Position numbers and translations under genes: made by a program
The notes under the pieces: model-generated
Seen by the model: the letters and a program-made list of their open reading frames with translations, nothing else
The model's database searches: none
Told to the model about the DNA's origin: nothing
Part shown: piece after piece, positions 31,039 to 52,785 of the stretch
Position numbering within the stretch: position 1 is the first letter of the stretch
Layout: each line of letters starts with the position of its first letter
Source: Phycisphaeraceae bacterium
GTDB lineage: Bacteria > Planctomycetota > Phycisphaerae > Phycisphaerales > SM1A02
Length of the DNA: 64,000 nt
Direction of reading: 5' to 3'
NCBI GenBank assembly: GCA_019636755.1
Contig: JAHBWZ010000003.1
Span: forward strand, 248,001 to 312,000

Positions 31039-33300
31039 TCAGCCCCAGTTCGAGAGCAGGAGGAGCAGGTCATCGAAGCCAACGGTGCCGTCACCGCTGA
31101 GATCGGCGTCGCAGGGAGGCGTGCACGGTCCCCAGGCCGCCAGCAGGATCAGCAGGTCGTCGAAGCCGACCGTGCCGTCCCCGTTCAGGTCACCGGTCGC
31201 GGGCGGCGCCGTGCAGTCGAGGTCGACGATGCGGAGGGCATCGATCGCGGCTTCGGTCACCGAGTCGTTGGGGTTGTCCACCGCGGAGAACCGGAACCGG
31301 GTCGCGGCCGTCGGCACCACGTAGTCGCGGAGCCGGTACGTCCGCTCGACCCAGAGGTTGCCCTGATGCGGAATCGCCTCGATCGTGATCCACGGTCCGG
31401 CATCGACGGACACCGCGATGGTCAGTCGATCCTGATCCTGGTCGTCGTTGTAGAACCAAGTCGCGACCGACATGGTCGGATCCGCCAGACCCGCGAGGTT
31501 GAGGACCGGCGACAGCAGATGCGTCGGACCTCCGTCCACGTCGGAGTTCCCGGGACGGTTCGCCGTCAGCCAGCAGGCCCCGGAACCGTCGAAGTCCGTG
31601 GTGGGATCACCGCGCGTTCCATCCCCGGCGGGAACGCCGCGTTCCCACGCGCCGTCCGTGAGCTGCACGTTCTGCACGGACCAGTCGAAGCCGCTCTCCA
31701 TGGTGTAGCGGAGGTCGATCGCAAGATCCCAGGCGATGACCGCGTCGAAGGTGTTCTGCGGCGCGCCGGCGGGGTATGTGATCGTCAGCCCGTCCGACTG
31801 CTGCGCCGAGAACCAGAGGTCGACGAGCGCGCCGCAGGGAAGCGGCGGAATCACGCCGGTGAACCGGCCAGGCTCTCCCCCGACCGGCGACATGGGCGCG
31901 TCGAACGCGTCATCGTCGATGCGCCAGTGAACTCTCGGACTTCCCGCGACGAGGGCGCCGGCGAAGTCCTCCAGGATGTCCACGGTCAGCGACCCGCCGG
32001 CGGGCGAGATCATCCCGGGCAGCGGATCCGGCAGTTCAAAGGCGATCTGCGGCAGTTCCAGCCGCCACACGAAGAGCCCCTTCTCCAGGTCGCTCCCGAT
32101 CACGGTCCCGCTTGGAAAATAGGGATAGACGCTCCAGAGCCCGTTGAAATTGGGGTTGTCGTCCGCCGGCCACGTGTCGAAGTACGCGACCTCCACGGGA
32201 TGTTCCGGATCCCCGGACCGGTCGAATACACGGAGACCGCTGCGGTAGTTCGCCGCGAAGATGTAGTCCCCGAGCGTGTAGAGATTGTGCGTCACCGCGG
32301 TGCTCTGGTTCGCGTACCAGCCGCGATACTGCACGCTGTTCAGGTCGTCGACGCGGAAGACGTGCGTCCGCGAATAGATCACCTCGCTGGAATCCAGTTC
32401 ATCGTTGAGATAGGCGAACGTCCGATCCTCGGAGAGCCAGACCTGGTGGGAGTAGTTCGTGTTCGCGTAGAACCAGTGCCCGATCTCGACGATGTTCGCC
32501 TTGTTGGTCACGTCCAGGATGGTCAGGCCGGTCTCCACGGAGCCGCCATTGAACCCGGCGCAGCAGAACGCGATCTGTCTTCCCGCCAGCGGCCCGCTGG
32601 TGTACGTCACCACCTGTGCGTCATGCACATAGCGGAAATGCCATTCGCCGACGAGCGGCGGATTGACCGGGTTGAGGCCGAGGTTGTAGATCCGGAGACC
32701 GAGCGACGGGCCGCCGCAGCGGTACAGGAATCCGCTCGTCTCGTCGATCGCGACATTGTGCGTCCGCGTCGAACCGCCCGTGTTCACGGTGTTCACCAGG
32801 GTGAAGACGCCGTTGTCGGCGTTCGACATGTCGACCACCTGGATCCCGGCATCCGTGCCCTCGGTCACGATGTAGGCGTAGTGCTGGAAGACCTTGGCGT
32901 CCCGCCAGAGGCTCACCGGTCCGGGGATGAAGGTGATGACCTGCGCGTCGGCGGGATCGGTCACTTCGACGAAACCGGTGCCGGACGACGTACACATGAT
33001 CGCGTACTCGCGCCCGGACGGAGACGTCCAGCCCCAGCAGTCGTTTCCGTTGGCGGCGCCGCCCAGCTGCGAGAGCGGGATCCATGACTTGAGCGCCAGG
33101 TTCTGCGACGGGAACGCCATGCCGCCCGCCTGCGCCCGCTCGCCGGGTGCGGCGGTCGAGGCCCGCCAGCCGGCGCCCTGGTACCCGGGACGGCGATCCC
33201 GGACCTTCGGATCGTCGGGATGGGCGTGCGCACTGCCGACGAGCGAATGCGCGACGCACGCGATGAGAAGCAATCCGACGAGCCGCTGAGTCCGGTGCAT
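31039..33300 (-). CDS. Choice-of-anchor-B / LVIVD-repeat secreted protein with dockerin-like tail
   Basis: A 753-residue exported protein. ATG 33300 is preceded by AGAGGG; signal peptide MHRTQRLVGLLLIACVAHSL and on to about residue 27. Residues 60-420 are a beta-propeller-like region of LVIVD type: NDCWGWTSPSGREYAIMCTS, GFVEVTDPADAQVITFIPGP, AGIQVVDMSNADNGVFTLVN, TGLTILDVTNKANIVEIGHW. Residues 560-700 carry the module shared with the upstream protease (DGAWERGVPAGDGTRGDPTT). Two dockerin-like units close the chain (GDLNGDGTVGFDDLLILLAA; DADLSGDGTVGFDDLLLLLS). No catalytic residues seen. Probably a surface or extracellular structural or binding protein. Confidence 0.86.
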   Translation of the reverse strand: MHRTQRLVGLLLIACVAHSLVGSAHAHPDDPKVRDRRPGYQGAGWRASTAAPGERAQAGGMAFPSQNLALKSWIPLSQLGGAANGNDCWGWTSPSGREYAIMCTSSGTGFVEVTDPADAQVITFIPGPVSLWRDAKVFQHYAYIVTEGTDAGIQVVDMSNADNGVFTLVNTVNTGGSTRTHNVAIDETSGFLYRCGGPSLGLRIYNLGLNPVNPPLVGEWHFRYVHDAQVVTYTSGPLAGRQIAFCCAGFNGGSVETGLTILDVTNKANIVEIGHWFYANTNYSHQVWLSEDRTFAYLNDELDSSEVIYSRTHVFRVDDLNSVQYRGWYANQSTAVTHNLYTLGDYIFAANYRSGLRVFDRSGDPEHPVEVAYFDTWPADDNPNFNGLWSVYPYFPSGTVIGSDLEKGLFVWRLELPQIAFELPDPLPGMISPAGGSLTVDILEDFAGALVAGSPRVHWRIDDDAFDAPMSPVGGEPGRFTGVIPPLPCGALVDLWFSAQQSDGLTITYPAGAPQNTFDAVIAWDLAIDLRYTMESGFDWSVQNVQLTDGAWERGVPAGDGTRGDPTTDFDGSGACWLTANRPGNSDVDGGPTHLLSPVLNLAGLADPTMSVATWFYNDDQDQDRLTIAVSVDAGPWITIEAIPHQGNLWVERTYRLRDYVVPTAATRFRFSAVDNPNDSVTEAAIDALRIVDLDCTAPPATGDLNGDGTVGFDDLLILLAAWGPCTPPCDADLSGDGTVGFDDLLLLLSNWG

Positions 33301-33511
33301 GGTGTTCCCTCTGGCAACACCCCCCAATGCGAACCCCGCCGGCAAGCGTAAGCCGGAATGCCCGGGGCGCCAAGGACGCGGACCGCCGATTCCCCCGGCA
33401 GGGAGGCCGGAGGTCCGCCGACGCCGGCACACGTCCGGAAAGCCGGAGCGCGGGCGCCGGCCGGCGTCGAGCGGCACCGCGCCGGCCCGGGGCGCGGACC
33501 GCCTGATGCCG

Positions 33512-34927
33512 TCACTCCGGATCCGGGGCCTCACGCCACGCCGCGGGCGGCGGTTCACCCGTCAGAGACTCCAGGAATGCGATGAGATCCTCCAGTCGAT
33601 CATCCGTGAGATGGAGCGGGCGGAGCACCGTTTCCTGGTGATGCGACGGCAGCACGGCGCCCTCCAGCGTGTTGTAGTGCCGCAGGACCTCGCGCAGCGT
33701 CTCGAACTGTCCTTCGTGCATGTACGGCGCCGTTCCCGCCACACCGCGCAGCGAGGGTGTCCGGAACGCGCCCCAGAGCGAGGGATCGTGCACCACGCCG
33801 CGGGAGAGCGCGGCGCGCGGACCGTCCGGGTCGTCACTGAAGGGACCGGATGCGGTGAACTCACCCGCGCGGAGCCGTTCGACACCGCGGAACCGTCCCG
33901 GATCCCGCAGCGGCCCCCCGCCGAGCGGTGGAACACCGGTGGAGTGGAACTCGCTGTCCGAGAGCAGGACACCGGAGTGACAGTTGCGGCAGCCGGCGTC
34001 GCCGATGAAGAGCGCGAGTCCGCGGCGTGCCGCCGGCGAGAGCGCCGACAGCCCCGCCGCATCCCCGTCGCGTAGCGCGCGGGCGAAGCGGTCGAACGGC
34101 GACTCGCCACTTCGCAGCCGCCGCTGGTAGGCCGCGAGCGCCTTGCCGATGTTGGCGTACGCCGCGCTGATCTCGCGCCGGTCGTCCGCCGCCATCGCAT
34201 CCCAGGCGATCACGCGGGGATCGCGGTGGTCACCGGCGGGTTTCGGACGCTTCGGGCGCGCGGCACGGGGAATGCCCGGTCGGTCCAGATCGGGCAGCGG
34301 CCCGAAGACTTCCTCGTAGTTCCCCCGGAGCACCGGATCATCGCGGACGACCCGGAGGACCGAGATGCGATCGAACCCGTGCTCCAGCGGATCCTCCAGC
34401 GGGTCCAGTGCCTGTCCCCAGAGCGTGTCGGCACGACCATCCCAGAAGAACCAGCGGTGCCACGCGACGTTCTGCACCGTCGGCGTGTGCCTGTCGAGCC
34501 CGCCGATCCCGGCGGCCACGGCGACGCCGTCGGTGAAGGCCATGGACGGATCGTGGCAGAACGCGCACGACACCGTGCCCGTCTGCGAAAGGGCGCGTTC
34601 GAAGAACAGCCGGTGCCCGAGGGTTGCCGCCCGTGGATCATCCGCGACGCGATTGGTCGGGTCGGGCGGCGGGACGTCCGGAAGCGGGCCGAGCGAGAGG
34701 ATCCGCCGGATCTCCTCCCCGGTGAGCGGCGGCGCCTCCAGAGCGGCAGCGCCGATGCCGGCCCGGACATCGCCCGAGGTGCCCGGCGGCGCCCCCGGGT
34801 CGCGCGGCGGCGCCCCCGCGTCGCGCGGCGGGGCGGCCAGGCGGGCGCCGACGAACGCGGCGCCGGTCAGGACCAGCAGCAACGGCAGGCCGAGTCGCCG
34901 GAACCGGTGTCGGGGCCGCGCGCGCAT
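33512..34927 (-). CDS. Di-haem cytochrome c peroxidase / MauG-family protein
   Basis: A 471-residue periplasmic di-haem protein with an N-terminal signal or anchor (residues 11-31). A low-complexity spacer of A-P-P-R-D-x-G repeats follows (34-50). Haem 1 site: CAFCH at residues 121-125, in SQTGTVSCAFCHDPSMAFTD. Haem 2 site: CRNCH at 313-317. It also has GRADTLWGQALDPLEDPLEH and SLRGVAGTAPYMHEGQFETL, both characteristic of the cytochrome c peroxidase/MauG family. An insert of roughly 30 residues near 215-245 is basic and proline-rich. Its start overlaps the stop of the lipoprotein gene by 1 nt. It may reduce peroxide or oxidise a partner; the partner is unknown. Confidence 0.9.
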   Translation of the reverse strand: MRARPRHRFRRLGLPLLLVLTGAAFVGARLAAPPRDAGAPPRDPGAPPGTSGDVRAGIGAAALEAPPLTGEEIRRILSLGPLPDVPPPDPTNRVADDPRAATLGHRLFFERALSQTGTVSCAFCHDPSMAFTDGVAVAAGIGGLDRHTPTVQNVAWHRWFFWDGRADTLWGQALDPLEDPLEHGFDRISVLRVVRDDPVLRGNYEEVFGPLPDLDRPGIPRAARPKRPKPAGDHRDPRVIAWDAMAADDRREISAAYANIGKALAAYQRRLRSGESPFDRFARALRDGDAAGLSALSPAARRGLALFIGDAGCRNCHSGVLLSDSEFHSTGVPPLGGGPLRDPGRFRGVERLRAGEFTASGPFSDDPDGPRAALSRGVVHDPSLWGAFRTPSLRGVAGTAPYMHEGQFETLREVLRHYNTLEGAVLPSHHQETVLRPLHLTDDRLEDLIAFLESLTGEPPPAAWREAPDPE

Positions 34928-37492: not shown

Positions 37493-37694
37493 CGCCAACC
37501 CCGCCCGCGCACCACACCCGCCCGGTTCAGGAACCCCGCCCCGAATCTGCGGCACCCCGGGCAGGCCCCGGTGACGCACGCGACCGCTCGGCGCGGGTAT
37601 CTTCCCCGGCCCGGTGTGCACCGCCCGCGGGATGTCCCCGGCACCGGCATGCACGCCGGGGCGCACGCGGAATGCCCGCGGTCGCCCGCCAGCG

Positions 37695-39176
37695 ATGCAC
37701 GACACTCCCGCATCCTCCGGCCGCCCGCGAACCGGCTGGCTCTTCAGGACGACGATCGCCCTGTCGGGGCTCGTCGTGCTGCTGCTGCTCTTCGAGGACA
37801 TCCTGCATCACGGCGCGCATCCACCCGCGCGCGACGCCGGGCCACCCCCGCTCTGGGGCATCGGCATCCTTCCGTTCGTGCTGCTGCTCGCCGCCATCGC
37901 CGTCATGCCGCTCGTCCCGCGCACGCGGCACTGGTGGGAACACAATCGAAACCGCTTCCTGCTCTCGCTCACGCTCTCCGGGGCGACGCTGCTCTACATC
38001 GCCCTGGTCCAGGGGCCCGCGCTCGTCGCGCCCACGCTTCAGCACGCGATTCCCGGCGAGTACGTGCCGTTCATCGTGCTGCTCTTCAGCCTGTACGTCG
38101 TCACCGGCGGCATCCACATCCAGGGCGGGCTGACCGGAACACCGCTCTCGAACGCGTCGCTGCTGGCGTTCGGCGCGGGCATCGCCAGCGTCGTCGGCAC
38201 GACCGGCGCCAGCATGCTGCTCATCCGTCCGCTCCTCCGCGCCAATCGCGGACGCGTCCGGGTCGGCCACACCCTCGTCTTCTTCATCTTCCTCGTGAGC
38301 AACATCGGCGGCACGCTGCTGCCCGTCGGGGATCCGCCGCTCTACCTGGGATACCTGGCCGGTGTCCCGTTCTTCTGGACGCTGGGGCTCTGGAAGCCGT
38401 GGCTGCTGACCTGCGTCGTCCTGCTGGCGCTCTACGTCGCCTGGGACACCGTCGCGTGGCGGGACGAGCGGCGGAGACACCCGGAGCGGACGCCACCGCC
38501 GCGCGAACCGCTCCGCGCCGCGGGCCTGTGGAATGTCCCGCTGCTCGTGGGTGTGATCGGCGCGGTCGCGTTCATCGAGCCGAGCCGTCCTCTCCCGCTT
38601 CTGGGCGTGCACCCGTTCCCGTACCTTCGTGAACTGGTGATGCTCATGCTTGCCGCGGCGTCGCTGCGGTTCACGCCGCGCCCGGTCCGGGAAGCGAACG
38701 GATACTCCTACGCCGCGATCGCGGAGGTCGCGGCGCTCTTCTGCGGCATCTTCATCACGATGCAGGTCCCCATCGCCCTGCTGCGGTCGAACGCGGATGT
38801 GCTCCAGTCCGTCCTCTCCCATCCGGCCCAGTTCTTCTGGAGCACGGGATCGCTCTCCTCCGTACTCGACAACGCGCCGACGTACATCGTGTTCTTCGAA
38901 CTCGGCAGGCTCAGCCCGGCCGGAGCGGACGTCGTCGCGCTCGGGGAAGCCGGCGCGAAAGGCGCCATCCCCGCCGCGGTCCTCACGGCGGTCAGCCTCG
39001 GCGCCGTATTCATGGGTGCGATGACCTATATCGGGAACGGCCCCAACTTCATGGTGAAGGCGATCGCGGAGCAGCAGGGCGTGCGCATGCCGACGTTCTT
39101 CGGCTACGTGTTCCGCTACAGCATCCCGATCCTGGTGCCGGTCTTCGCGCTGATGTCGATGCTGTTCCTGCGATGA
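37695..39176 (+). CDS. nhaD: NhaD-type Na+/H+ antiporter
   Basis: A 493-residue inner-membrane antiporter of the NhaD/ArsB superfamily with about 12 hydrophobic segments. Family marks: GIGILPFVLLLAAIAVMPLV, YVVTGGIHIQGGLTGTPLSN, LLAFGAGIASVVGTTGASML, FFIFLVSNIGGTLLPVGDPP and LSSVLDNAPTYIVFFELGRL. It would expel sodium in exchange for protons. The start is uncertain: ATG 37695 begins a plausible chain, while a GTG at 37614 adds 27 polar residues and lies 10 nt after TATCTT (37598-37603), the same pattern as the leaderless genes. It is divergent from the NHL operon. Confidence 0.9.
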   Translation: MHDTPASSGRPRTGWLFRTTIALSGLVVLLLLFEDILHHGAHPPARDAGPPPLWGIGILPFVLLLAAIAVMPLVPRTRHWWEHNRNRFLLSLTLSGATLLYIALVQGPALVAPTLQHAIPGEYVPFIVLLFSLYVVTGGIHIQGGLTGTPLSNASLLAFGAGIASVVGTTGASMLLIRPLLRANRGRVRVGHTLVFFIFLVSNIGGTLLPVGDPPLYLGYLAGVPFFWTLGLWKPWLLTCVVLLALYVAWDTVAWRDERRRHPERTPPPREPLRAAGLWNVPLLVGVIGAVAFIEPSRPLPLLGVHPFPYLRELVMLMLAAASLRFTPRPVREANGYSYAAIAEVAALFCGIFITMQVPIALLRSNADVLQSVLSHPAQFFWSTGSLSSVLDNAPTYIVFFELGRLSPAGADVVALGEAGAKGAIPAAVLTAVSLGAVFMGAMTYIGNGPNFMVKAIAEQQGVRMPTFFGYVFRYSIPILVPVFALMSMLFLR

Positions 39177-39231: not shown

Positions 39232-40254
39232 TCATCCGATCGCGTGGCGTCCCGCGGGGTCGACGAGCCAGAGCCAGTCCTCGAACAGGAACTCCAGACG
39301 CATCGCGAGCAGCGCGATGCGGCCCATCACCGTGTACCCGAATGCGGCGCCGAAGGTGATCATCAGGAACCAGATGCCGACACGCGCGGTCCGGCCGACG
39401 ACGCCCTTGTGCTCGATCGAGAAGAAGAAGTAGACCAGGCACGCGAGCACGCCGGCAATGAGCGTGATGTTCTCCAGCGACGACCAGATGTCGAACGTCT
39501 GCGTCGCCGGGTCCACGACCCAGAGCGGGATGATGCTGTTGCTGATCTGGCTGAGGAAGTCCGCGTGCAGGAACGCGATGAGTCGAAGGCCGCAGAATGC
39601 ACCGATGATGAAGGCCATCGGCCACCGCGAGATCCAGCCACCCTTCGGCAGGAGCCGGCAGAGCAGCAGCGCTCCCAGCACGAGCGCGACGAGCGCCTTG
39701 ATCCGCGCGTCCATCGCGGGCGAATCAGAGATTCCCGGCATCACCGTGCCCTTCACGAGTTCCGGCACGATGTTCGCAAAGAGAATGGGAACCAGCGTGT
39801 CCCAGAACCCGACGACCATCCAGTAGGCCGCCGACACGCCGACGATGATCGACTCCGCGGACTTGTAGAACGGGTTGTCGCGATAGAGGAACGAGAGAAT
39901 CGCCAGCGTGAACAGCGCGGCCAGCCAGGTCCCCACCGTCCGGGAGAGACTGAAGACGATGGTGCGCTGGCCCGGGTCTGCCCGCTCCGCTTCCGCCCAC
40001 ACGCGGGCATCCACGGTCGAGGACGTCTTCCATGAGACCCGGCGGTCGGCGGAGATGGTCGCCGCATCGTGATCCAGGATGTCATCCGAACCGGCGTTGA
40101 CCCACTTCGGGTCGTCGTCCGTACCGACGTTCACGAACGCGCGTTCATCGACCCGGACGTACTGGTTTCCCGCGCCCCGCAGGAACGCGTTGGCCAGCAG
40201 CATCACGCCGCCGATCACGAACACGATGGTCCAGACCAGGGTTTCCCGCTTCAC
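39232..40254 (-). CDS. Polytopic membrane protein, last gene of the MutL/DUF6754 cluster
   Basis: A 340-residue membrane protein I cannot assign. GTG start at 40254 overlaps the previous stop (GTGA). One N-terminal segment (residues 6-25) is followed by an extracytoplasmic stretch of about 75 polar residues (DERAFVNVGTDDDPKWVNAG), then about seven hydrophobic segments, including YWMVVGFWDTLVPILFANIV and AFIIGAFCGLRLIAFLHADF. Charged and aromatic residues inside the membrane region (SAAYWMVVGFWDT) hint at a transport or assembly role, not just anchoring. Part of the tightly coupled eight-gene set ending here; 55 nt separate it from the convergent nhaD. Confidence 0.72.
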   Translation of the reverse strand: MKRETLVWTIVFVIGGVMLLANAFLRGAGNQYVRVDERAFVNVGTDDDPKWVNAGSDDILDHDAATISADRRVSWKTSSTVDARVWAEAERADPGQRTIVFSLSRTVGTWLAALFTLAILSFLYRDNPFYKSAESIIVGVSAAYWMVVGFWDTLVPILFANIVPELVKGTVMPGISDSPAMDARIKALVALVLGALLLCRLLPKGGWISRWPMAFIIGAFCGLRLIAFLHADFLSQISNSIIPLWVVDPATQTFDIWSSLENITLIAGVLACLVYFFFSIEHKGVVGRTARVGIWFLMITFGAAFGYTVMGRIALLAMRLEFLFEDWLWLVDPAGRHAIG

Positions 40255-41132
40255 GACCGCGCCTCCCGCCGGCGACCGACGAAGTAGATGACGTTCCCGG
40301 CGATGATCAGGATGACCATGAGCACATGGGCAATGAGCTGCGGCCCCATGCGCCGGCGTCCTTCCGCATAGATGCCGGAGACCCGGCCGTCCTCCGCGTG
40401 CACGAGGTGCCCGTACCTGTCCATCACCAGTTTCTCGTATTCCGCGGCACCCTTGATCGCCGCAAGAAGTCCCGGCAGCTGTGACGGGATATAGGGATAC
40501 ATGAGCGGAGCCTGGACGCCGGTGCAGCCCGCGACGATCCGGATGTCGCTGGGGTTCGGCGTGACCGCGTACTGGATCCACTCCTTGGTGCCCGGATATC
40601 CCGCGGACACGTTGGCGATCAGGTCCAGGTCGAGCAGGTTCCGGATGCCCTGCATCATGGGGATGTCGGAGACCGGCGTGCCCTGGATGTCCGCCGGGAA
40701 TGCCCGCGGGAAGTCGCTCACGATGAGCTTGATGACGCCCTCGTTGCCGGTCTTGAACCCGAGGTTCACATAATCCTGTCCGTAGACGAGGTGCGGGAAG
40801 TCCGCACGGAGCACGCTGTCGATCTTCTGCTCGATCATCCGCGTCCCGACCGGCCAGAGGGCGAGGAAGTACATCCGATGGCCCTTCGCCGCGCAGTGCA
40901 GGACGAAGGACGTCGCCATCGGTCCCAGTTCCCCTTCGCTCGCCGGGTCATAGTCGAAAGCGAGAAGAACCCTTGATCCCGGCGGAAGATCGTCGATTTC
41001 CCGGAACGTGCTTTCCGCGAGCCCGGTGGGCTTCTCGGGGAACTGCAATTGGGCGAGGATCGGCACGGAGACGGCGAGGAACATCAGCAGGAAGATCCAG
41101 CGCCGGTCCAGGTCACGGAAGAACTCATACAT
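40251..41132 (-). CDS. Membrane-anchored protein with central soluble domain, MutL/DUF6754 cluster
   Basis: A 293-residue protein not recognised by name. It has a membrane segment at each end (residues 11-27 and about 267-285), placing a 240-residue alpha/beta domain between them on one side of the membrane. That domain looks Rossmann-like: PPGSRVLLAFDYDPASEGEL, CAAKGHRMYFLALWPVGTRM, NEGVIKLIVSDFPRAFPADI, IRIVAGCTGVQAPLMYPYIP. No classical nucleotide-binding glycine loop is visible. Gap to the upstream gene is 3 nt and overlap with the downstream gene 4 nt. It may pair with the DUF6754-type protein, which has a similar anchored alpha/beta domain. Confidence 0.72.
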   Translation of the reverse strand: MYEFFRDLDRRWIFLLMFLAVSVPILAQLQFPEKPTGLAESTFREIDDLPPGSRVLLAFDYDPASEGELGPMATSFVLHCAAKGHRMYFLALWPVGTRMIEQKIDSVLRADFPHLVYGQDYVNLGFKTGNEGVIKLIVSDFPRAFPADIQGTPVSDIPMMQGIRNLLDLDLIANVSAGYPGTKEWIQYAVTPNPSDIRIVAGCTGVQAPLMYPYIPSQLPGLLAAIKGAAEYEKLVMDRYGHLVHAEDGRVSGIYAEGRRRMGPQLIAHVLMVILIIAGNVIYFVGRRREARS

Positions 41133-41135
41133 GGC

Positions 41136-41834
41136 TCAGCCCCTTCCTCCGCCGAGGTATGACCGATCGACCCCGAGCAGGATCTTGAGGGAGACCGACG
41201 CGGTGCCGAGCGCGATGCCGATCATGATCGCGCGGCTGCCCGCGGTGTTGAAGACGTTCATGATCGTCATCGTGAGATTCTCGAAGCGCAGTCCCGAGAG
41301 ACTGTCGGGCAGCCAGTCCGTCAGGATGACGCCGGCATAGGTCCGCCCGAGCAGGATGATGAACGCGGTACCGAGCAGCAGCACCGCCTCCGTGTTCTTC
41401 GCGCGGAATGCCCGGAATGCCGCCGATGCGACGTAGAACGCGAGCATCGCGAACATCGTGGCCGTGATCGGCTTGAAGACGAACTCGTAGATCCACCAGA
41501 ACGCACTGCCGGTCTCCGAGTACTCGCCGGACCATGCATGGCCCGGGTACCGGTCCGCCGGGTTCGCGCCGATCTTGAACAGGCCGACGCACAGCGTGAG
41601 GAGGAACGCGGTGACCGTGATCAGCGAGTACCCCCAGCCCGCGGCCTGGTCGGAGACCTTCTTGAGATGGATCTTCAGCAGGTTGCCGCCGCCGAGCACG
41701 AATGCGACCGCCGCGAGGATGTTGAAGATTTCCGCGACGTCATCGCCCGACCGCTGGGCGGCCGGTATGAAGAACGACACGATCATCGTGAACCCGCAGA
41801 CGATGGCGATCAGGAGAGGGACGGTCCGTTGCAT
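41136..41834 (-). CDS. Polytopic membrane protein, MutL/DUF6754 cluster
   Basis: A 232-residue integral membrane protein with about six hydrophobic segments (for example LLIAIVCGFTMIVSFFIPAA at 7-26 and EAVLLLGTAFIILLGRTYAG near 150-169) and no sizeable soluble part. Two loops carry the basic stretch LLKIHLKKVSDQAAGWGY and the aromatic stretch FWWIYEFVFKPITATMFA. No transporter family recognised. A GAGGAG site precedes the start at 41834, 14 nt after the DUF6754-type gene, the largest gap in the cluster. Confidence 0.72.
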   Translation of the reverse strand: MQRTVPLLIAIVCGFTMIVSFFIPAAQRSGDDVAEIFNILAAVAFVLGGGNLLKIHLKKVSDQAAGWGYSLITVTAFLLTLCVGLFKIGANPADRYPGHAWSGEYSETGSAFWWIYEFVFKPITATMFAMLAFYVASAAFRAFRAKNTEAVLLLGTAFIILLGRTYAGVILTDWLPDSLSGLRFENLTMTIMNVFNTAGSRAIMIGIALGTASVSLKILLGVDRSYLGGGRG

Positions 41835-41848
41835 CGGAAGAGCGCTCC

Positions 41849-43342
41849 TCAGGCGAGTACGGTGTCACGGAGGAAGCCGACCCAGGCGGCAAGCGTCCTT
41901 CCGAGGTCGCTGTCCGCGCCGGCCATGGCGCCGGCGGTGGCGAGCACCACGCCGATCACCAGGACCACCGCCACGATGATCTTGCCGACGTCCTGCCCCT
42001 TCAGGCTTCCAAGTTCCTCGGCGGATCCGGAGAGGTACGCCGACGCGGCGAAGAACTCCTCGCCGATCAGCGTGTAGTCGCACGCCGCGACGAAGAACGG
42101 CAGCTGCGCGGGCTGGGCCGTGCCCGCGACCTGGATCGCGCCGATCGAGTTCCCGGTCTCGGCGAGGATCAGCGACTCGGCGTAGAACATGCCCATGTAG
42201 ATGCATGCCGCGGGCTTCTCGCGGACCATCATGCCGGAGAGGTACGCGACGTAGCCGAACTGCTCATCCGTCACGTAGTAGATGAGGTCCTCGTTGTACG
42301 CGTCCGGACGCCCGGCGGCGAGGAACGCCGCCTGCACGGTCTCCCGCGCGGTGGTCATGACGAGCGAGCGTGCGGTCGGCACCTCCACGCGGGCGTCGTA
42401 CTCCGCGGCGGTCTTCGCCACGCGCGACAGCACCGTGATGCCGGCGATCGTCTGCATCTCGTTCATGTCCTGGATGCCGGGCACGAAGAGAACGGATCGT
42501 CCCATTTCGGTCGCGCGGCCGACGGCCTCGTCGATCGCCTCCAGCCCGGCGATCCGCCGGACGCGGAGCGGCCGACCCGATCGGGCGATGAGAATGAAGG
42601 CCACGACGGCGCCGCAGAAGACCAGTGCGATGCCGAAGAACCAGAGTCGGCTGATGTCGACGGGCTCGAGTGTGGTCGTGACCGGCGCGGCCTCCGCGGG
42701 CGTGCCCGCCGCCGTTCCCGTCCAGGGAATCACCCGGAACCGGTAGGACTCGCCGCGCACCAGGCGATCGACCACGAACCGGTACTCCGTCTGCGCCGCG
42801 TCCGCCTCCACGCGGTCGACGAACATCCATCGCGCGACGTCGAACGCGTCATCCGGGAGCGCATCGATCCCGGCCGCCGCCTCCGCGCGGACGCTTCGAA
42901 GCCGGCTCGCGAGTCCCGGCTCGATGGCCATGGGCCGGGCGAGGATCGAGTCATCCAGTCCCCGGTCGGCAAGGACCGCCTGCATCGCCGTCCGCTGTGC
43001 CGCGCGCCGGCGCTCCAGGCGGGCGGTGGCGAGATCGCCGGCGACCTCCGCCTCGGACATCGCGCGTTCGATCATGAAGAACTCCGGAACCGCGCCGGCC
43101 GCCACGGTCCACTCGAGAACCACGGCCGTTCCGCCGTCTCCCCAGCGATCGGCCGCCGTGATCCCGGTGACCGCCGGCGGCGCGTCGGACGGCGCCGCCA
43201 GCAGCGGCCGCGTGAGGGCCAGCAGCGGCAGCGTGAGAGCCACCAGCAGCAGCCCGGGGGCCAGCCCGGGGACCAGTACGCTGACGATCGGGATGAGCCG
43301 GCAGGCCGCCGCCCGTCGTCCGAGCCGCTCAGGACTGTTCAT
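41849..43342 (-). CDS. DUF6754-type membrane protein with N-terminal Fn3-like domain
   Basis: A 497-residue protein: signal or anchor segment (residues 17-50), a fibronectin-III-like extracytoplasmic domain (55-225; VVLEWTVAAGAVPEFFMIER and TEYRFVVDRLVRGESYRFRV, interrupted by a charged helical insert), a membrane segment (232-253, LWFFGIALVFCGAVVAFILI), then a cytosolic alpha/beta domain (258-450) with GRSVLFVPGIQDMNEMQTIA, GITVLSRVAKTAAEYDARVE, ACIYMGMFYAESLILAETGN and SIGAIQVAGTAQPAQLPFFV, and a final membrane segment (453-476). From memory this pattern belongs to the DUF6754 family; that naming needs checking. The repeated G-A-x-Q/M-x-A-G type turns recall a repeated fold. Coupled to the upstream gene by ATGA. 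Confidence 0.74.
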   Translation of the reverse strand: MNSPERLGRRAAACRLIPIVSVLVPGLAPGLLLVALTLPLLALTRPLLAAPSDAPPAVTGITAADRWGDGGTAVVLEWTVAAGAVPEFFMIERAMSEAEVAGDLATARLERRRAAQRTAMQAVLADRGLDDSILARPMAIEPGLASRLRSVRAEAAAGIDALPDDAFDVARWMFVDRVEADAAQTEYRFVVDRLVRGESYRFRVIPWTGTAAGTPAEAAPVTTTLEPVDISRLWFFGIALVFCGAVVAFILIARSGRPLRVRRIAGLEAIDEAVGRATEMGRSVLFVPGIQDMNEMQTIAGITVLSRVAKTAAEYDARVEVPTARSLVMTTARETVQAAFLAAGRPDAYNEDLIYYVTDEQFGYVAYLSGMMVREKPAACIYMGMFYAESLILAETGNSIGAIQVAGTAQPAQLPFFVAACDYTLIGEEFFAASAYLSGSAEELGSLKGQDVGKIIVAVVLVIGVVLATAGAMAGADSDLGRTLAAWVGFLRDTVLA

Positions 43343-44466
43343 GCTTCAATGAGCTCCACATTCGCGCGGGGGATGATGACCTTCTCGCCGGAGTCGAACG
43401 TGACTTCCAGCACGCGGGCCTTCGACTCCGAGTCGAGGATCCGCGGTTCAGGCGGAAGCGCGCTCACGGCGCCGATGAGTCCGAAGTGCGGATCGCGGAT
43501 GATCCGGACCGGACGACCGGGCTCGAGCTGTCCCTCCGGCCACCGGCGGTCGAACTCGGGAAGCACCGCGTCGGGTGTGACCGGGATGAGGATCTCCGGC
43601 CGCATGACACCGGCCCGGATCTGCGTCGCGCCGTTGACCGAGGCGAGCGATCCGGCACGGGCGCGAAGGAGCTGCCACGTGCGGTCCGCCATGGCGATGT
43701 CGCCGAATCCCTCGGTGACGATCACGGTCGTGGGAATCGATTCGCTGCCGGTGATCGCGACCCCCAGGTCGTAGCCCAGGATCTCGCGCAGATCCTGGTC
43801 ATCGATGCCACCCGCGACCACCGCCGCCGCGCCGACCTTCATCGCCTTCGCGACGGCCTCGTGCCACACCCGTCCGCCGCCGACCACCACGCATCCCTTC
43901 ATGTCGGGCGTGATCATGTCCGCGACGAGTTCCTGGGACGGGTCCTTGACGGCGAGCACGACGCGACCGGATCGCTCGCCGCCGACGCCGAAGATGCCCT
44001 GGATGAGCGTGATCTCCGCCTCCACCACCACGCCCTCGCCCGGGAGCACCTGGGCGACGGTCCCCGACAGGTAGGCGCGCACTTCGACCGGAATCGGTTC
44101 GCCGCGCAGGATGAGCTGCCCGGTCACGTCCGAGATGGTCTCGATGGTGCCGCCGTGCGGACTCTTCACGGTCCGCCGCATCATGCCGAAGATGCCGCGC
44201 GTCTGCGCGATCGCATCGTCGCGCCGGACGCGTTCGCCCTCCTTCCGGAGCATGCAGCCATGGACGTCCGCCGGCGGAACGCCGAGCAGGTTGGCCATGT
44301 TGACCGGCATCACGTCACCGGGCAGGAACGTCCGCGCCACCGGCGTATCCGCCTCGACGCGGTCTCCCTGCGCCACCAGCACCTCGCCACGGATCGGGAG
44401 GATGCGCCGGCAGCGATGCACGGTGCGCCCGGTGACCTTGAGTCCCGGCGTATACGCCTTGGCCAT
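43339..44466 (-). CDS. Soluble barrel-sandwich / KOW-like protein, MutL/DUF6754 cluster
   Basis: A 375-residue soluble protein with no signal or membrane segment. Residues 23-50 (PIRGEVLVAQGDRVEADTPV) look like a lipoyl/biotinyl-type barrel-sandwich hybrid, as at the start of RnfC or NqrA; the usual modified lysine is missing. A second such region is VKSPHGGTIETISDVTGQLI (100-119) to YLSGTVAQVLPGEGVVVEAE (132-151). The middle has a glycine-rich alpha/beta segment (GCVVVGGGRVWHEAVAKAMK, VGAAAVVAGGIDDQDLREIL, TTVIVTEGFGDIAMADRTWQ). The C-terminus (316-373) is KOW/NusG-like: PGRPVRIIRDPHFGLIGAVS ending EKVIIPRANVELIEA. Coupled to MutL upstream (TGATG) and the DUF6754-type gene downstream (ATGA). 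Function unknown. Confidence 0.75.
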   Translation of the reverse strand: MAKAYTPGLKVTGRTVHRCRRILPIRGEVLVAQGDRVEADTPVARTFLPGDVMPVNMANLLGVPPADVHGCMLRKEGERVRRDDAIAQTRGIFGMMRRTVKSPHGGTIETISDVTGQLILRGEPIPVEVRAYLSGTVAQVLPGEGVVVEAEITLIQGIFGVGGERSGRVVLAVKDPSQELVADMITPDMKGCVVVGGGRVWHEAVAKAMKVGAAAVVAGGIDDQDLREILGYDLGVAITGSESIPTTVIVTEGFGDIAMADRTWQLLRARAGSLASVNGATQIRAGVMRPEILIPVTPDAVLPEFDRRWPEGQLEPGRPVRIIRDPHFGLIGAVSALPPEPRILDSESKARVLEVTFDSGEKVIIPRANVELIEA

Positions 44467-46328
44467 CAGCCTCGTCTCCTGTCCGCGCCGCCGACGGCGT
44501 GCAGTTCGCGATCCGGGTACATCGAGACCGCGCTCAGCCAGCGTGCCATCGCCGCGCGACATTCATTGCGTGACTCGGGGAGTACGAGCGGACGCCCGCG
44601 CCCGTCGAGAAGGAGCCCGACCGTTCCTCCGCGGACGCTCCGCGCCACCCGCTTGCCCGGCCCGTTCCCGAGGTCGAACCCGCGCGCCGGCTCGACGGTG
44701 ACCGTGGCGCTCTCGCCCGGTCCCAGCGGCAGGAGCTTCAGATCGCCGCAGGTGATCTCTCCGGACTCCCGGAGCGTCTCGCCGGTGACCTCGTACCGGA
44801 AGCAGGTGCGTCCCGCCTTCCCCGCCCCCTTCGCGGCAACGCACGTTCCGAGGTAGATCAGGCAGTCCCGCTCGAAGACCTCCAGCGATGCCTGCGGGTG
44901 CACCTCGGCCAGCACACCCAGGTGCGGCATCATGAAGATGCTGTCCTTGGCGAGCGTCGTGAAGCCCTCGGGCTCGAAGGCGTCGATCAGCATGAGCGCG
45001 GTCTGCTGCATCCGCGGCGCGTGCGAGAGAACTCCGCCGGATGCGACCAGCAGGTCGAGTTTCATGTTGTCGACGATCGTCTGGCCGCTCGTCTGCTGGC
45101 TGAACGTGTCGCCGACCGTCCTCTGCTGCTGCACACCCTTGAGCGTCGTGGCGAACTCCTTGTGCTGCTGATACGCGAGCCGCAGCGCCTCCCGCGCCAC
45201 CGCCTGCTCGAAGACCAGCGCCTCCAGCGACTGCGGGATCGTCGTCGGACGGATCATCTTGTTCTTGACGCGGTTCCGGAGTTCCCGCTCGTCCATGTCG
45301 AAGTGGACCCAGCGGAGAACGTTCGCCATCGTCGCCTCGGCGCAGACGTTGGAGATCGAGTAGCTCATCCCCAGGTTCGCCGAAACCGTCCGGTTGAAGG
45401 TTCCGTCGAAGACCGAGAACACGTCCGTGGTCGCGCCGCCGATGTCGACGCCGACCGCGTTGATGCCCTGTCGCTCCGCGATCGTCCGGAGGATGTTGCC
45501 GACCGCGCCGGGAGTCGGCATGATCGGCGCATCGGTCCAGTTCATCAGGATGTCGTAGCCCGGCGCATGCGCCATGACGTGCTCCAGGAACATGTCATGG
45601 ATCGCGTCCCGCGCCGGGCCCAGGTTCTCCCGCTCCAGCACCGGCCGGAGATTGTCGACCACCTTGAGGTCGATGGGCTCGTCCTCGAACGCCTTCGCCA
45701 CCAGCGACGCTGCATCCCGGTTGCCGGCGAAGATGACCGGCATCCGGTACTCACCGCCGAATCGCGGCTGCGGGCGGGCGGGGCCGATGAGTTCGGCGAT
45801 CTCCACGACCTTCTTGACGTCGCCGCCGTCGGTGCCGCCGGAGACCAGGATCATGTCCGGCCGCAGTTCACGGATCCGCTGGATCTGCTCGTAGGGCCGG
45901 CGCCGGTCGTTCGACGCGATCGTGTCCATGACGATCGCGCCGGCGCCGAGCGCCGCGCGCTTCGCGCTCGCCGCGGTCATCTCCCGGACGACGCCCGCGA
46001 CCATCATCTGGAGACCGCCGCCCGCCGACGACGTGGAGATGTAGAGGTCGCACCCCTCCGGTCCGTCGGGCCCGGTGCGGGCCGGCTGGATGATCCGGCC
46101 GTTCCCGTCCACCAGGCGACGTCCGGCGAGTTCGCCGATCTCCGTCACCGAGTTGATCACGCCGATGGTCACGTTCGCGAACGGCTCTTCGACGGTCGTC
46201 GGCGCCTCGCCGCGGTGTGTCTGTCGGTACACCCCTTCAACGCGCTGGATGAGGATCGCCTTCGTCGTGGTCGAGCCGCAGTCCGTGGCGAGAATGACCG
46301 TGACCTTCTCTGGTTCGATTCGCGTCAT
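44466..46328 (-). CDS. MutL/GlmL-like ASKHA-fold ATPase without its mutase
   Basis: A 620-residue cytosolic protein of the MutL (glutamate mutase L) family, which has the actin/Hsp70 fold. Phosphate loop 1: ILATDCGSTTTKAILIQRVE (residues 12-31). Phosphate loop 2: GVDIGGATTDVFSVF (293-307), and MILVSGGTDGGDVKKVVEIA (159-178). GlmL normally sits beside GlmS and GlmE and is thought to reactivate the cobalamin enzyme. Here neither a B12-binding DxHxxG protein nor a mutase catalytic subunit lies in the window. Instead it is sandwiched in an operon of membrane proteins (ATGA before, TGATG after). The name MutL here has nothing to do with DNA mismatch repair. I infer an ATPase driving or gating the membrane complex encoded around it. 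Confidence 0.88.
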   Translation of the reverse strand: MTRIEPEKVTVILATDCGSTTTKAILIQRVEGVYRQTHRGEAPTTVEEPFANVTIGVINSVTEIGELAGRRLVDGNGRIIQPARTGPDGPEGCDLYISTSSAGGGLQMMVAGVVREMTAASAKRAALGAGAIVMDTIASNDRRRPYEQIQRIRELRPDMILVSGGTDGGDVKKVVEIAELIGPARPQPRFGGEYRMPVIFAGNRDAASLVAKAFEDEPIDLKVVDNLRPVLERENLGPARDAIHDMFLEHVMAHAPGYDILMNWTDAPIMPTPGAVGNILRTIAERQGINAVGVDIGGATTDVFSVFDGTFNRTVSANLGMSYSISNVCAEATMANVLRWVHFDMDERELRNRVKNKMIRPTTIPQSLEALVFEQAVAREALRLAYQQHKEFATTLKGVQQQRTVGDTFSQQTSGQTIVDNMKLDLLVASGGVLSHAPRMQQTALMLIDAFEPEGFTTLAKDSIFMMPHLGVLAEVHPQASLEVFERDCLIYLGTCVAAKGAGKAGRTCFRYEVTGETLRESGEITCGDLKLLPLGPGESATVTVEPARGFDLGNGPGKRVARSVRGGTVGLLLDGRGRPLVLPESRNECRAAMARWLSAVSMYPDRELHAVGGADRRRG

Positions 46329-46714
46329 GCATCCGGTTCCGGGGCCGTGTCCGCCTGCGCAGCGTCGCCTGCCGGCGGACGGGCGGACTCCGATTCGAAG
46401 TGTTCGATGCGCCGGCTGAGGTACTCGAAGGCGCCGCGATGCTCGAGGAACTCGGCGAGCCTTCGGTACGCCTCGTGATTCTCGCGCCGCGCGAGCGACC
46501 AGACGACCGGTGACAGCGCATGCATCGCCTGGCTTGCGAGGTAGCCGAGCGGCCGGCTCATCTCCAGCGCCACGAGCCCGGGCACCGTGAGACGTCGCCG
46601 GGCCAGGGCGCGGCACAGTCGATCGACCACCGGCGCCTGGTCAGGCGTCGGTTCGTGCGGCCCCGGCGCCTCGATGGCGAACGCGTGCCGGAGGGCGGTG
46701 CGGAGCCTGCTCAT
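46325..46714 (-). CDS. Small helical protein, MutL/DUF6754 cluster (129 aa)
   Basis: A 129-residue, mostly helical protein not recognised. Core: DQAPVVDRLCRALARRRLTV, PGLVALEMSRPLGYLASQAM, HALSPVVWSLARRENHEAYR, then an amphipathic helix to HFESESARPPAGD. No signal, but the middle (LGYLASQAMHALSPVVW) is hydrophobic enough for membrane contact. Start 46714 overlaps the stop of the upstream gene (ATGA), and its stop overlaps the MutL start in the same way, so it is probably made in step with MutL. Confidence 0.7.
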   Translation of the reverse strand: MSRLRTALRHAFAIEAPGPHEPTPDQAPVVDRLCRALARRRLTVPGLVALEMSRPLGYLASQAMHALSPVVWSLARRENHEAYRRLAEFLEHRGAFEYLSRRIEHFESESARPPAGDAAQADTAPEPDA

Positions 46715-47274
46715 CGGGCAGGATCTCCCGCGCAGGGCGCGGCCGCGACCGGCGGGTCGACGGACGGTGCGGCGCTGTCCGTGTTGCGCGCGTGTACCGC
46801 GGCATGGGCGGCGCCGAGCCATCCGCTCGACGTCGCCGGATCGGCGCCGAGAAGAACATGAAGACCGGGATCGGGGCCGAAGCGCGGCCGCGCCGGTCGG
46901 CGCGCGAGCAGGGCCGCATGGCTCCCCAGGTCCAGCCGACCGACCTCCTGCCACCGGATCGAACGGCGCGTCAGCGGCGTCGTCACTTCGACGCCGTCAT
47001 CCGTCACCAGGTATCTCGAAGGAAGGAAGAACCGGCGGAGGACGGCCGCCAGCACGCCCGCCGACGCGAGCCCCCACCCGGGATCGCCTCCGACGCGTGC
47101 GATCAGGAGCGCCAGACCGGCGATGACCGTCACGGCGAGCAGCGTCCTGGGTGGATGCTCCCGCGCCGGATGCGCCGTCCACGCCCGACGCTCGATCGGG
47201 CGCACGAGGCTGGTCACGCGGGTGGCTGTCACTCGGTCGCTGTCTCCTGCCGGTGGCCGGGCGAAGCGGGCCAT
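46711..47274 (-). CDS. Membrane protein with PH-like domain, first gene of the MutL/DUF6754 cluster
   Basis: A 187-residue protein. After about 50 polar residues come one or two hydrophobic segments (LLAVTVIAGLALLIARV; LASAGVLAAVLRRFFLP), then a small beta domain like the bacterial PH fold: RYLVTDDGVEVTTPLTRRSI, RWQEVGRLDLGSHAALLARR, PGLHVLLGADP. The C-terminal 40 residues are alanine/proline-rich. The start is uncertain: ATG 47274 is used, while GTG 47304 adds 10 residues. It begins 84 nt after nadC ends, and no separate promoter is obvious, so the cluster may be transcribed from the nadC promoter. Confidence 0.68.
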   Translation of the reverse strand: MARFARPPAGDSDRVTATRVTSLVRPIERRAWTAHPAREHPPRTLLAVTVIAGLALLIARVGGDPGWGLASAGVLAAVLRRFFLPSRYLVTDDGVEVTTPLTRRSIRWQEVGRLDLGSHAALLARRPARPRFGPDPGLHVLLGADPATSSGWLGAAHAAVHARNTDSAAPSVDPPVAAAPCAGDPAR

Positions 47275-47358: not shown

Positions 47359-48306
47359 TCATGCATCCAGGCCGACATCGAGCGAGCGGATGCCATGGGT
47401 CAGCGCCCCGACCGAGATTCGATCAACCCCGGTCTCCGCGACCTCCCGGACGTTCTCGAGGGTGATACCGCCGGATGCCTCCAACCGGATCCCGGGCGCC
47501 CGGGCATCGCGGCGCGCCACCGCCGCACGCAGGCATGGCGGCGGCATGTTGTCCAGGAGGACGATGTCCACCAGCCCCGGCCCCGCGCCGAGGATCGCCT
47601 CGAGCTGATCGAGTCGATCGACCTCGACCTCGACGAACTGCAGCGGCGCCGGCGCGCGCACGCGACGGATCGCATCGGACAGGCTCCCCGCCCAGGACGC
47701 CGCGGGCAGGGCGGCGAGATGATTGTCCTTATAGAGGGCCGCGTCGAAGAGCCCGAGTCGATGCGGCACGCCTCCGCCGCACGCCACCGCGTGCTTCTCG
47801 GGACCGCGCAGTCCCGGCGTGGTCTTGCGGGTCTCGCAGATCACCGCCCGTGTCCCCCGGATGCGGTCGACGAATCGCCGCGTGACCGTCGCAATTCCGG
47901 ACAGTCGTCCGATGAAGTTGAGCAGCGGTCGCTCGATCGCGAGCAGGAGATGCAGCGGCGCCGTGAGGTGCGCCACGACGGCCCCCGCCTCCAGGGACAT
48001 GCCGTCCTGCGCACGGACGGTCCCGCGCAGCGATCCGCCGAGTCGCCGTTCATACTCGGTCGCCAGCGCGGGAAGCATCGCGAGCCCGCTCAGGACGCCT
48101 GGCTCCCGCATGACGATGGACATCGTCACGTGCCGGCGCGAATCGGGCAGACTGTCGGTCGTCACGTCGCCGCGGTCGCCCAGGTCCTCCTGCATCGCCA
48201 GGTGCATGAGCGGCGCAAGCAGCGCGTCCGGGCAGCGTGCCTGGAATGCATCGCGCAGAACGGGCAGCATGAGTTGCCCCGGATCGTCGAACGGCGTCTG
48301 CGGCAC
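47359..48306 (-). CDS. nadC: Nicotinate-nucleotide pyrophosphorylase (quinolinate phosphoribosyltransferase)
   Basis: A 315-residue cytosolic enzyme of NAD synthesis that joins quinolinate and PRPP. Motifs: MQEDLGDRGDVTTDSLPDSR near the N-terminus, ERPLLNFIGRLSGIATVTRR, VICETRKTTPGLRGPEKHAV, ACGGGVPHRLGLFDAALYKD NH, VEVEVDRLDQLEAILGAGPG, DIVLLDNMPP, and the C-terminal RLEASGGITLENVREVAETG phosphate-binding end. The start is GTG at 48306, 7 nt after a TACACT -10 box, so the mRNA looks leaderless with a GTG start. The MutL/DUF6754 cluster follows downstream on the same strand. Confidence 0.95.
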   Translation of the reverse strand: MPQTPFDDPGQLMLPVLRDAFQARCPDALLAPLMHLAMQEDLGDRGDVTTDSLPDSRRHVTMSIVMREPGVLSGLAMLPALATEYERRLGGSLRGTVRAQDGMSLEAGAVVAHLTAPLHLLLAIERPLLNFIGRLSGIATVTRRFVDRIRGTRAVICETRKTTPGLRGPEKHAVACGGGVPHRLGLFDAALYKDNHLAALPAASWAGSLSDAIRRVRAPAPLQFVEVEVDRLDQLEAILGAGPGLVDIVLLDNMPPPCLRAAVARRDARAPGIRLEASGGITLENVREVAETGVDRISVGALTHGIRSLDVGLDA

Positions 48307-51873: not shown

Positions 51874-51960
51874 GTGACCGGCGGACCGCTCACGGACCGT
51901 CCGCCGACCAACCATGACCCCGGGCCGCTTCGACCCGCGACTTCAGAAGGATCGACCCTC

Positions 51961-52785
51961 ATGCGAAACCACCTTCGACGAGCCCTCCTCACCTCCACGA
52001 CCATGCTCGCCTGCGCCGCCACGGCGCTCGGCACCACGCTCCACCAGGAGTCGTTCGACAGCGGCGCCGCGAATGACGGTGCCTGGCAGTTCTTCGGCAC
52101 GGACTCGTTCCCCGCAGCCGGGGGCAACCCGGGTGCCTGGCTCCGGTCGCAGAACCTCGACACGTTCGCACCGCGCGCCCGGACGACCGCGTCCCTGAGC
52201 ACGTTCGTCGGTGACTACCGCGCCAAGGGCGTCACGGCCTTCGGGTTCGACCTGCGCACCGATTACGTGGACTTCAGCGCCGCCGGCCGCCCCGCGACGC
52301 TCATGCTCATCCACGACAACGGCACGCCCGGCAACGTCTTCGACGACACGGCGGCGTATTACGTCGGACCCGATGTCCCCGTCCCGGGGGACGGCTGGGT
52401 CTCGTTCGACTATCCCCTGCCCGCCGACAGTGACGTCCTTCCGGCGGGATGGGCACTGCTGAACCTCGGCGATTCCGGCGCACCCGCGGCGCACACCTGG
52501 TCGCAGGTGGTCCAGTCCGTCAGCCGCGTCGAGATCCTCTACGGCCACCCCGAGTTCTTCTACATCTTCCAGATGTGGCACGTGGGACTCGACAATCCGC
52601 GGATCGACATCATGAAGGAGCCCACCAACCCCGCGGACATCAACGGCGACGGCACCGTCGACCTCCAGGACCTGCTGGTGCTGCTCGCCTCATGGGGCCC
52701 CTGCGCAGACTGCCCCGCGGACATCGACGGCAGCGGCGAGGTCGACTTCGCCGACCTCCTGGCACTGCTGACCGCATGGGACTGA
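51961..52785 (+). CDS. Secreted dockerin-tailed protein of unknown function (274 aa)
   Basis: A 274-residue exported protein: signal peptide MRNHLRRALLTSTTMLACAA to about residue 24, then a beta-sandwich-like domain (TLHQESFDSGAANDGAWQFF; VTAFGFDLRTDYVDFSAAGR; WSQVVQSVSRVEILYGHPEF; MWHVGLDNPRIDIM) resembling carbohydrate-binding or PEP-CTERM-type lectin-like sandwiches. Residues 220-274 are two calcium-loop units, ADINGDGTVDLQDLLVLLAS and ADIDGSGEVDFADLLALLTA, with W-G-P-C between. AGAAGGA precedes the ATG. No enzyme motif. Divergent from the winged-helix-like gene. Confidence 0.82.
   Translation: MRNHLRRALLTSTTMLACAATALGTTLHQESFDSGAANDGAWQFFGTDSFPAAGGNPGAWLRSQNLDTFAPRARTTASLSTFVGDYRAKGVTAFGFDLRTDYVDFSAAGRPATLMLIHDNGTPGNVFDDTAAYYVGPDVPVPGDGWVSFDYPLPADSDVLPAGWALLNLGDSGAPAAHTWSQVVQSVSRVEILYGHPEFFYIFQMWHVGLDNPRIDIMKEPTNPADINGDGTVDLQDLLVLLASWGPCADCPADIDGSGEVDFADLLALLTAWD

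Follow-up and report, generated by a model that had tools for sequence, protein, structure and literature searches.

The window analysed here, a stretch of 64,000 nt from a Phycisphaeraceae bacterium (contig JAHBWZ010000003.1, positions 248,001 to 312,000), carries a cluster of eight genes, g1 to g8, all on the minus strand and running from 47274 to 39232. The cluster is comprised of a nearly invariant, collinear module of four genes (g5-g6-g7-g8), in which g5 encodes a DUF6754 protein, a second, separable unit of two genes (g3-g4), in which g3 encodes a MutL-family ATPase, and two optional neighbours (g1 and g2). The arrangement is not due to chance, because it was seen again in many genomes and several phyla. 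With moderate confidence, we read the cluster as encoding a two-part inner-membrane machine, with a soluble part (an ASKHA ATPase and its adaptor) that would act on a four-protein membrane unit.

The gene limits and starts of g1 to g8 were recomputed from the sequence. From g1 to g8 in order, the junctions were overlaps of 4, 4, 1 and 4 nt, gaps of 14 and 3 nt, and an overlap of 4 nt, in agreement with the eight leftward genes joined by 1-4 nt overlaps or 3-14 nt gaps that an earlier, sequence-only reading of the window had described. One MutL match and one DUF6754 match were present in the window genome.

The conservation of the cluster was analysed in 115 loci, which included 34 places, 80 named records and the window (L labels denote fetched DUF6754 loci, and G labels denote genomes). 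Every locus was chosen for its DUF6754, and the named records were the best 80 of at least 517 relatives. Genes in the loci were assigned with iterated profiles built from the eight proteins. Not all loci are independent, as L061 and L076 have identical domains and three loci share one chromosome. Among the matches listed, the record titles named Planctomycetota, Zixibacteria, Cloacimonadota, Latescibacterota, Gemmatimonadota, Neomarinimicrobiota and others.

The first protein of the membrane module, g5 (41849..43342), is a full member of the DUF6754 family (PF20539; 397.8 bits against a gathering score of 27, E 2.1e-119), which Pfam titles as a family of unknown function and for which the conserved partners g3, g4 and g6 to g8 are reported here. 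The match lies C-terminal to an Fn3 region; for the N-terminal half of g5, an Fn3 fold was supported by profile matches and by fold rows over residues 53-226 (Z up to 11.5). The module continues with a membrane protein (g6, 41136..41834), a domain flanked by two membrane anchors (g7, 40251..41132) and a polytopic membrane protein in which an N-terminal anchor is followed by an insert and then by the other transmembrane segments (TMs; g8, 39232..40254). A total of 131 complete, collinear 5-6-7-8 modules were found, in 98 of the 115 loci; one module was present in 76 loci, two in 11 and three in 11. Gene 6 directly followed the DUF6754 open reading frame (ORF) in 140 of 158 cases, and in L084 four other ORFs separated genes 5 and 6. 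The earlier expectation that a core of the cluster would co-occur and keep its order in distant phyla is thus borne out by these modules, which were found in several phyla, and homologues scattered without a conserved neighbourhood were not encountered in the sampled loci.

The four proteins of one module have a common history. In the 22 loci with more than one module (55 modules), the distance matrices of 5, 6, 7 and 8 were correlated at 0.845-0.892, and none of 500 within-locus shuffles of module membership reached the observed correlation for any of the six pairs. Three tandem modules were common in Zixibacteria, and their first, second and third copies (12/13, 11/13 and 11/13, respectively) fell in three separate parts of a DUF6754 domain tree, which was built by a quick method and in which 56 of the 150 inner branches were unsupported. 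The DUF6754 of the window was placed in the part of the tree with the second copies and most of the single-copy planctomycetes. L069, L073, L084 and L100 lay inside a mainly planctomycete part; the names of metagenome-assembled genomes may be mis-binned. No relatedness was detectable between g6 and g8, or between g7 and the DUF6754 stretch. No Pfam or NCBIfam family matched g2, g6, g7 or g8 over its cut-off, and the relatives of g6 gave weak matches spread over 27 families (for example, TMD0_ABC in 6/46 and DUF7521 in 9/46). As a separate observation, L058 and L181 each contained two DUF6754 genes that lacked the long outer region, in tandem ahead of a single set of genes 6, 7 and 8 (ordered 7-6-8 in L058). 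These two loci hint at two different g5 chains sharing one membrane unit.

The second unit begins with g3 (44466..46328), which matched the MutL family (PF13941) over positions 1-450 of 450 (423 bits against a gathering score of 27, E 1.8e-126) and carries approximately 130 extra C-terminal residues. The ATP motifs are intact: residues 14-25, 294-302 and 430-437 (433 excepted), which we take to be the ASKHA phosphate-1, phosphate-2 and adenosine motifs, were invariant in six aligned members. The MutL of the window was 59-80% identical to five relatives. The only PHROGs match in the cluster was weak, that of g3 to a partition protein (E 0.007), which is to be expected as both are actin-fold ATPases. 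The next gene, g4 (43339..44466), encodes a soluble protein with a barrel-sandwich domain (RnfC_N/NqrA_N/biotinyl-like) and a KOW domain, and is the proposed adaptor of the ATPase. The barrel-sandwich families matched the window g4 only just below their cut-offs (RnfC_N at 16.1 bits, with 25.6 required), its relatives scored better, and within the g4 family matches at E up to 0.1 were found to Biotin_lipoyl in 23/35 members, RnfC_N in 20/35, KOW in 8/35 and NqrA_N in 6/35.

Of 58 MutL genes that could be tested, 55 were followed closely by g4 or were fused to it. The position of the pair varied; it was found upstream of the 5-8 module, downstream of it (L051 and L052), on the opposite strand (several Zixibacteria) or elsewhere, and 3-4 is a second unit that is separable from the module. 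In L069 and L084, the g3 and g4 proteins formed a single ORF. A more distant fused MutL-g4 paralogue of 824-1057 amino acids (aa) was present in Cloacimonadota, Zixibacteria, a bin labelled Armatimonadetes and one planctomycete, and once, in L188, this second, fused MutL lay directly upstream of a 5-6-7-8 module. The fusion of g3 and g4 in some genomes argues that the two proteins touch. In five loci (L108, L127, L130, L131 and L139, from Zixibacteria, an FCB-group bin and one bacterium), a protein of approximately 255 aa was encoded between MutL and g4; the sequence of one of these begins like a signal peptide and contains a membrane segment at its C terminus, and the protein is a possible extra subunit.

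The first two genes of the cluster are optional neighbours of the core units. The small membrane protein g1 (46711..47274) has a PH-like stretch (bPH_6, E 0.022, under the cut-off), and of 53 cases that could be tested, 19 had a relative of it no more than 1.2 kb from MutL; g2 (46325..46714), a small protein of 129 codons, is a more frequent neighbour, beside MutL in 38 of the 53. The suggestion that all eight genes form one coupled set therefore stood in part. The conserved core was confirmed; as a single unit the eight dissolve into a 5-6-7-8 module with one to three tandem copies per locus and up to six DUF6754 copies per genome, a separable 3-4 pair, and g1 and g2 as options.

The core parts were also analysed across genomes. 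Of 199 Planctomycetota genomes, 50 contained PF20539, and no match was obtained in 14 well-known control genomes. The domain was present in 24 of 25 genomes of the family to which the window belongs (the window genome included), and in 5 of 16 genomes in the rest of its order. Among the 199 genomes, g4 was detected in 48 (counting a short fragment in G053, E 5.9e-5), the specific MutL in 49 and g7 in 51. MutL was counted at 400 bits or more (with only a partial copy in G073), which left out matches of approximately 110 bits in G010, G098 and G197; g4 was counted by search in Planctomycetota only, and elsewhere it was seen in the locus maps. DUF6754 was shared with g4 in 45 genomes (Fisher p 3e-35), with the specific MutL in 45 (p 4e-34) and with g7 in 50, that is, in all DUF6754 carriers (p 1e-46), where the p values take no account of shared ancestry.

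Of the 45 genomes with both DUF6754 and MutL, 29 had the two within 20 kb on one contig and 16 had them at separate places, as counted from the first listed place per gene; different contigs may reflect an assembly break. The two genes shared a contig in G024, G088 and G122 and were separated there by roughly 250 kb or more. In one planctomycete family (f30), the set was split: G087 and G105 carry 3-4-5 at one place and 6-7-8 at another, and G024, G137 and G194 have 3, 4-5 and 7 at three places. Gene 6 was near gene 7 in G137 and G194 and was not found in the G024 stretch, and g8 was unrecognised in these three stretches. Retention of the parts together despite their dispersal points to a shared function rather than to operon inertia.

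Outside the 199 genomes, 30 further carriers, none of them labelled Planctomycetota, all had a MutL match (at least 830 bits in 27), with only the MutL end beside a run of N in G228 and MutL in pieces in G209 and G221. The fetched stretches, several of them short, held no MutL in 19 of these 30. In Cloacimonadota, DUF6754 was found in 47 of 49 genomes, in 1-3 copies; a canonical MutL was present in 49/49 (>920 bits), and 37/49 had a second, lower-scoring match (368-505 bits). In Zixibacteria (the phylum of a record named Zixiibacteriota), DUF6754 was found in 60 of 60 sampled genomes, in 2-6 copies. A single MutL match accompanied six DUF6754 copies in G226 and five in G202, and one canonical MutL thus probably acts in trans on several modules.

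The topology of the membrane proteins was assessed from hydropathy and charge on alignments. The analysis suggests that g5 has a hydrophobic N-terminal segment, an extracytoplasmic Fn3 region, a TM, a cytoplasmic DUF6754 domain and a further TM; that g6 has about six TMs with the N terminus inside; and that g7 has both ends inside and its domain outside. The alignments also suggest a polytopic g8, with a topology less clear than that of g5 to g7. The outer parts were highly variable: in Cloacimonadota, the g5 ORFs measured 921-1025 aa, and in family f30 several hundred residues were inserted between TMs of g6. The inner parts were conserved, with a mean column identity of 52% in the DUF6754 stretch compared to 25% in the whole of g5.

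As the Fn3 domain dominated the Foldseek results for the model of the whole g5, the DUF6754 domain was predicted separately. Modelled alone, the stretch showed helices alternating with strands (pLDDT 94.5, pTM 0.86). A Foldseek search with this domain found nothing at E up to 0.001, the best match being a 4-phosphopantoate-beta-alanine ligase (E 1.6e-3, TM-score 0.31). The top row of the structural comparison was Sir2 (Z 11.6, rmsd 3.4, 138 aligned, 9% identity), followed by a UDP-sugar epimerase, the RCK domain of MthK (Z 9.3) and many more at Z 8-9.5. The Sir2 and RCK Rossmann-type domains, at Z 11.6 to 8.6 and 9-11% identity, thus resemble the model in fold only, and the domain is predicted to have a Rossmann-like arrangement that lacks a specific relative. 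Searches of the PDB with sequence profiles of g3, g4, g6, g7, g8 and the DUF6754 domain turned up no convincing relative. Invariant residues of the domain (among them G62, P95, Q134-F135, G157-F159-E162, G180-T181 and G200-E201-E202, in domain numbering) sit at or just past the predicted strand ends, where such folds bind ligands, and a ligand pocket can be proposed at this site in the model.

Taken as a machine, the membrane unit would have a polytopic core of g6 and g8, with the Fn3 arm of g5 and the domain of g7 outside and the Rossmann-like ligand domain of g5 inside. The soluble ATPase unit, g3 with its adaptor g4, would engage the membrane unit from the cytoplasm, and its most likely target is the DUF6754 domain, the cytoplasmic site that would be accessible to the pair. 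ATP-driven opening and closing of g3, relayed via g4, would take the membrane unit through a conformational cycle or reset that cycle. This cycle would couple the inside and outside domains, and the outer parts (Fn3, g7 and the loops) would reach into the envelope. We infer the physical complex, its coupling to ATP, the direction and the substrate; the most likely job would be the moving or handling of an envelope component or a small solute, and an envelope component is favoured because two polytopic subunits accompany the rest in every complete module.

The main rivals to this proposal are that 3-4 is purely a chaperone and that the system serves signalling. In the former, g3 and g4 would be an assembly pair that builds or reactivates the 5-8 complex, which would have its own, unrelated energy source. 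The single canonical MutL alongside several DUF6754 copies in G226 and G202 is what a shared helper would leave, and MutL-family proteins are reactivases. The fused MutL-g4 paralogue beside a module fits a dedicated motor at least equally well, however, and we regard the chaperone role as possible, with a probability well short of even.

A transmembrane signalling or sensing system, in which the Fn3 region and the g7 domain would act as envelope sensors, DUF6754 as the binding site for a cytoplasmic ligand and the ATPase pair as the output switch, is considered unlikely. No recognisable signalling domain was found in any of the eight proteins, and two conserved polytopic subunits would seem more than a sensor needs. 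The contrast between the long, variable outer regions and the conserved inside domain would suit such a system, as would the presence of the MthK RCK domain, a ligand-gating domain, among the structural rows.

More doubtful still is a redox- or ion-coupled complex similar to Rnf or Nqr, in which g4 would be the counterpart of the peripheral RnfC/NqrA subunit and DUF6754 would bind a dinucleotide. The RnfC_N and NqrA_N matches cover part of g4 in many members of its family, and the nearest fold to DUF6754 is that of Sir2, which binds NAD. Barrel-sandwich domains are, however, common to many unrelated adaptors, and an ATPase would be superfluous in a complex of this kind. Among the columns with more than 60% cysteine, none was found in g4, g6, g7 or g8, one was found in g5, and four were found in g3 (two invariant, in a six-row alignment); no match to another Rnf/Nqr subunit was found in the cluster.

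There is very little probability that g3 is an ordinary GlmL-type reactivase of the B12-dependent glutamate mutase GlmES that lies upstream of an unrelated membrane operon by chance. Membership of PF13941, which includes GlmL/MutL, the accessory ATPase of glutamate mutase, and the OR-4 ornithine degradation protein, speaks for this, as do the 222 bits of g3 against the GlmL model; g3 belongs to the same family over its full length with the ATP-site motifs kept. The g3 protein differs in its extra C-terminal residues, and its 222 bits lie under the GlmL equivalog cut-off of 475 (NF040745), as do its 195 bits against OR-4 under the 600 required there. Its partner is g4, sometimes fused to it, and it accompanies g4 and DUF6754 in many genomes. 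GlmE (PF06368), searched in the Planctomycetota genomes, gave 7 matches at E up to 0.001 in the 199 genomes (3 over the cut-off), none of them in the 50 DUF6754 carriers, nor was it found in the window genome. The GlmL-like matches of approximately 110 bits lie elsewhere, in G010, G098 and G197, with GlmE in G010 and G098 (on the same contig in G098). As GlmE is absent from the 50 planctomycete carriers, the cluster MutL is, judged by these profile searches, not the GlmES reactivase; a MutL beside glmS or glmE, which the sequence-only reading had named as one finding that would overturn it, was not encountered in the sampled genomes. An anti-phage defence or mobile system, with which a patchy presence across planctomycete families would agree, can be dismissed as extremely improbable, since PADLOC matched none of the eight proteins at E up to 0.01 and the system is near-universal in the sampled genomes of two phyla and in the family of the window.

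Several observations weigh against the proposed ATPase-driven machine. Five of the 50 planctomycete DUF6754 genomes had no detected g4 and five had no detected MutL (G014, G037, G050 and G145 lacked both, G041 lacked MutL and G099 lacked g4), and the Fisher tests ignore shared ancestry. Conversely, g4 was present in three genomes and MutL in four that lack DUF6754 (G053, G067, G073 and G153, with g4 in all but G073 and as the fragment in G053); g7 was nonetheless present in G067. G153, a 99% complete genome, had neither DUF6754 nor g7, and its locus consists of 2-3-4 with no 5-8; it is either a real exception or a gap. The order 5-5-7-6-8 in L058 departs from the module. The named MutL-type ATPases act on soluble enzymes and are not known to act on membrane complexes. 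Finally, the neighbours of the cluster are varied housekeeping genes that point to no substrate.

By recognition, we take these neighbours to include NadC, TatD, fatty-acid genes, PPDK and MetK, none of them consistent. In two Cloacimonadota (L154 and L158), the 2-3-4 unit lies near what is presumably an Lgt-like gene and a small lipoprotein-like ORF, a weak hint of a lipoprotein link, and a presumed PurB is also near in two Cloacimonadota. Near tandem modules, a gene recognised as pyruvate-phosphate-dikinase-like was noted in ten loci (L086, L095, L097, L107, L108, L120, L122, L127, L130 and L139), and what appears to be a small basic protein was noted in ten (L086, L095, L097, L107, L120, L122, L127, L130, L139 and L144). 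In the window, a presumably nadC-like gene (47359-48306, minus strand) ends 84 nt ahead of g1, and relatives of it adjoin or lie near the cluster in L068, L071 and L089. Convergent with g8 is a polytopic membrane protein (37614-39176, plus strand) that we take to be similar to NhaD-type sodium/proton antiporters. Two secreted-looking proteins (31039-33558 and 51874-52785) end in repeats such as GDLNGDGTVGFDDLLILLAAWG, presumably a dockerin-like motif.

The proposed machine would resemble, in its logic only, the ECF transporters, in which one energising module serves many membrane modules; here one ATPase unit would serve several membrane modules in cis or in trans. In contrast to ECF transporters, no ABC ATPase or ECF match was found among the eight proteins, apart from a sub-threshold ABC2_membrane_5 match in the window g6. 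No papers naming DUF6754 or PF20539 were found in the open-licence literature, and no description of a system of this composition was found in the parts of that literature that were available. The pieces (MutL, DUF6754, Fn3 and barrel-sandwich) are known; as a system, the cluster is categorically new, as far as this can be judged from the lack of a PADLOC match, the one weak PHROGs match and the same partial literature. The description of a conserved, apparently undescribed MutL-ATPase/DUF6754 membrane system has held.

As the core parts stay together across several phyla, the system is probably a basic piece of cell-envelope machinery. We lean somewhat towards a new class of ATP-powered inner-membrane machine, combining an ASKHA ATPase of the MutL type and a barrel-sandwich adaptor with one or several four-protein membrane modules that are old paralogues of one another. 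This machine would be core equipment of Zixibacteria, Cloacimonadota and whole planctomycete families and would perform an envelope task that is done otherwise, or not done, in model bacteria. The gene sets and separable units provide a concrete list for purification or knock-out in cultivable planctomycetes. If the proposal is true, a MutL-type ATPase, from a family known for repairing soluble enzymes, would be tied to a membrane unit. A multi-subunit membrane system that is present in almost all genomes sampled from two phyla, and whose core domain is absent from the 14 control genomes, represents a gap in the knowledge of the bacterial envelope.

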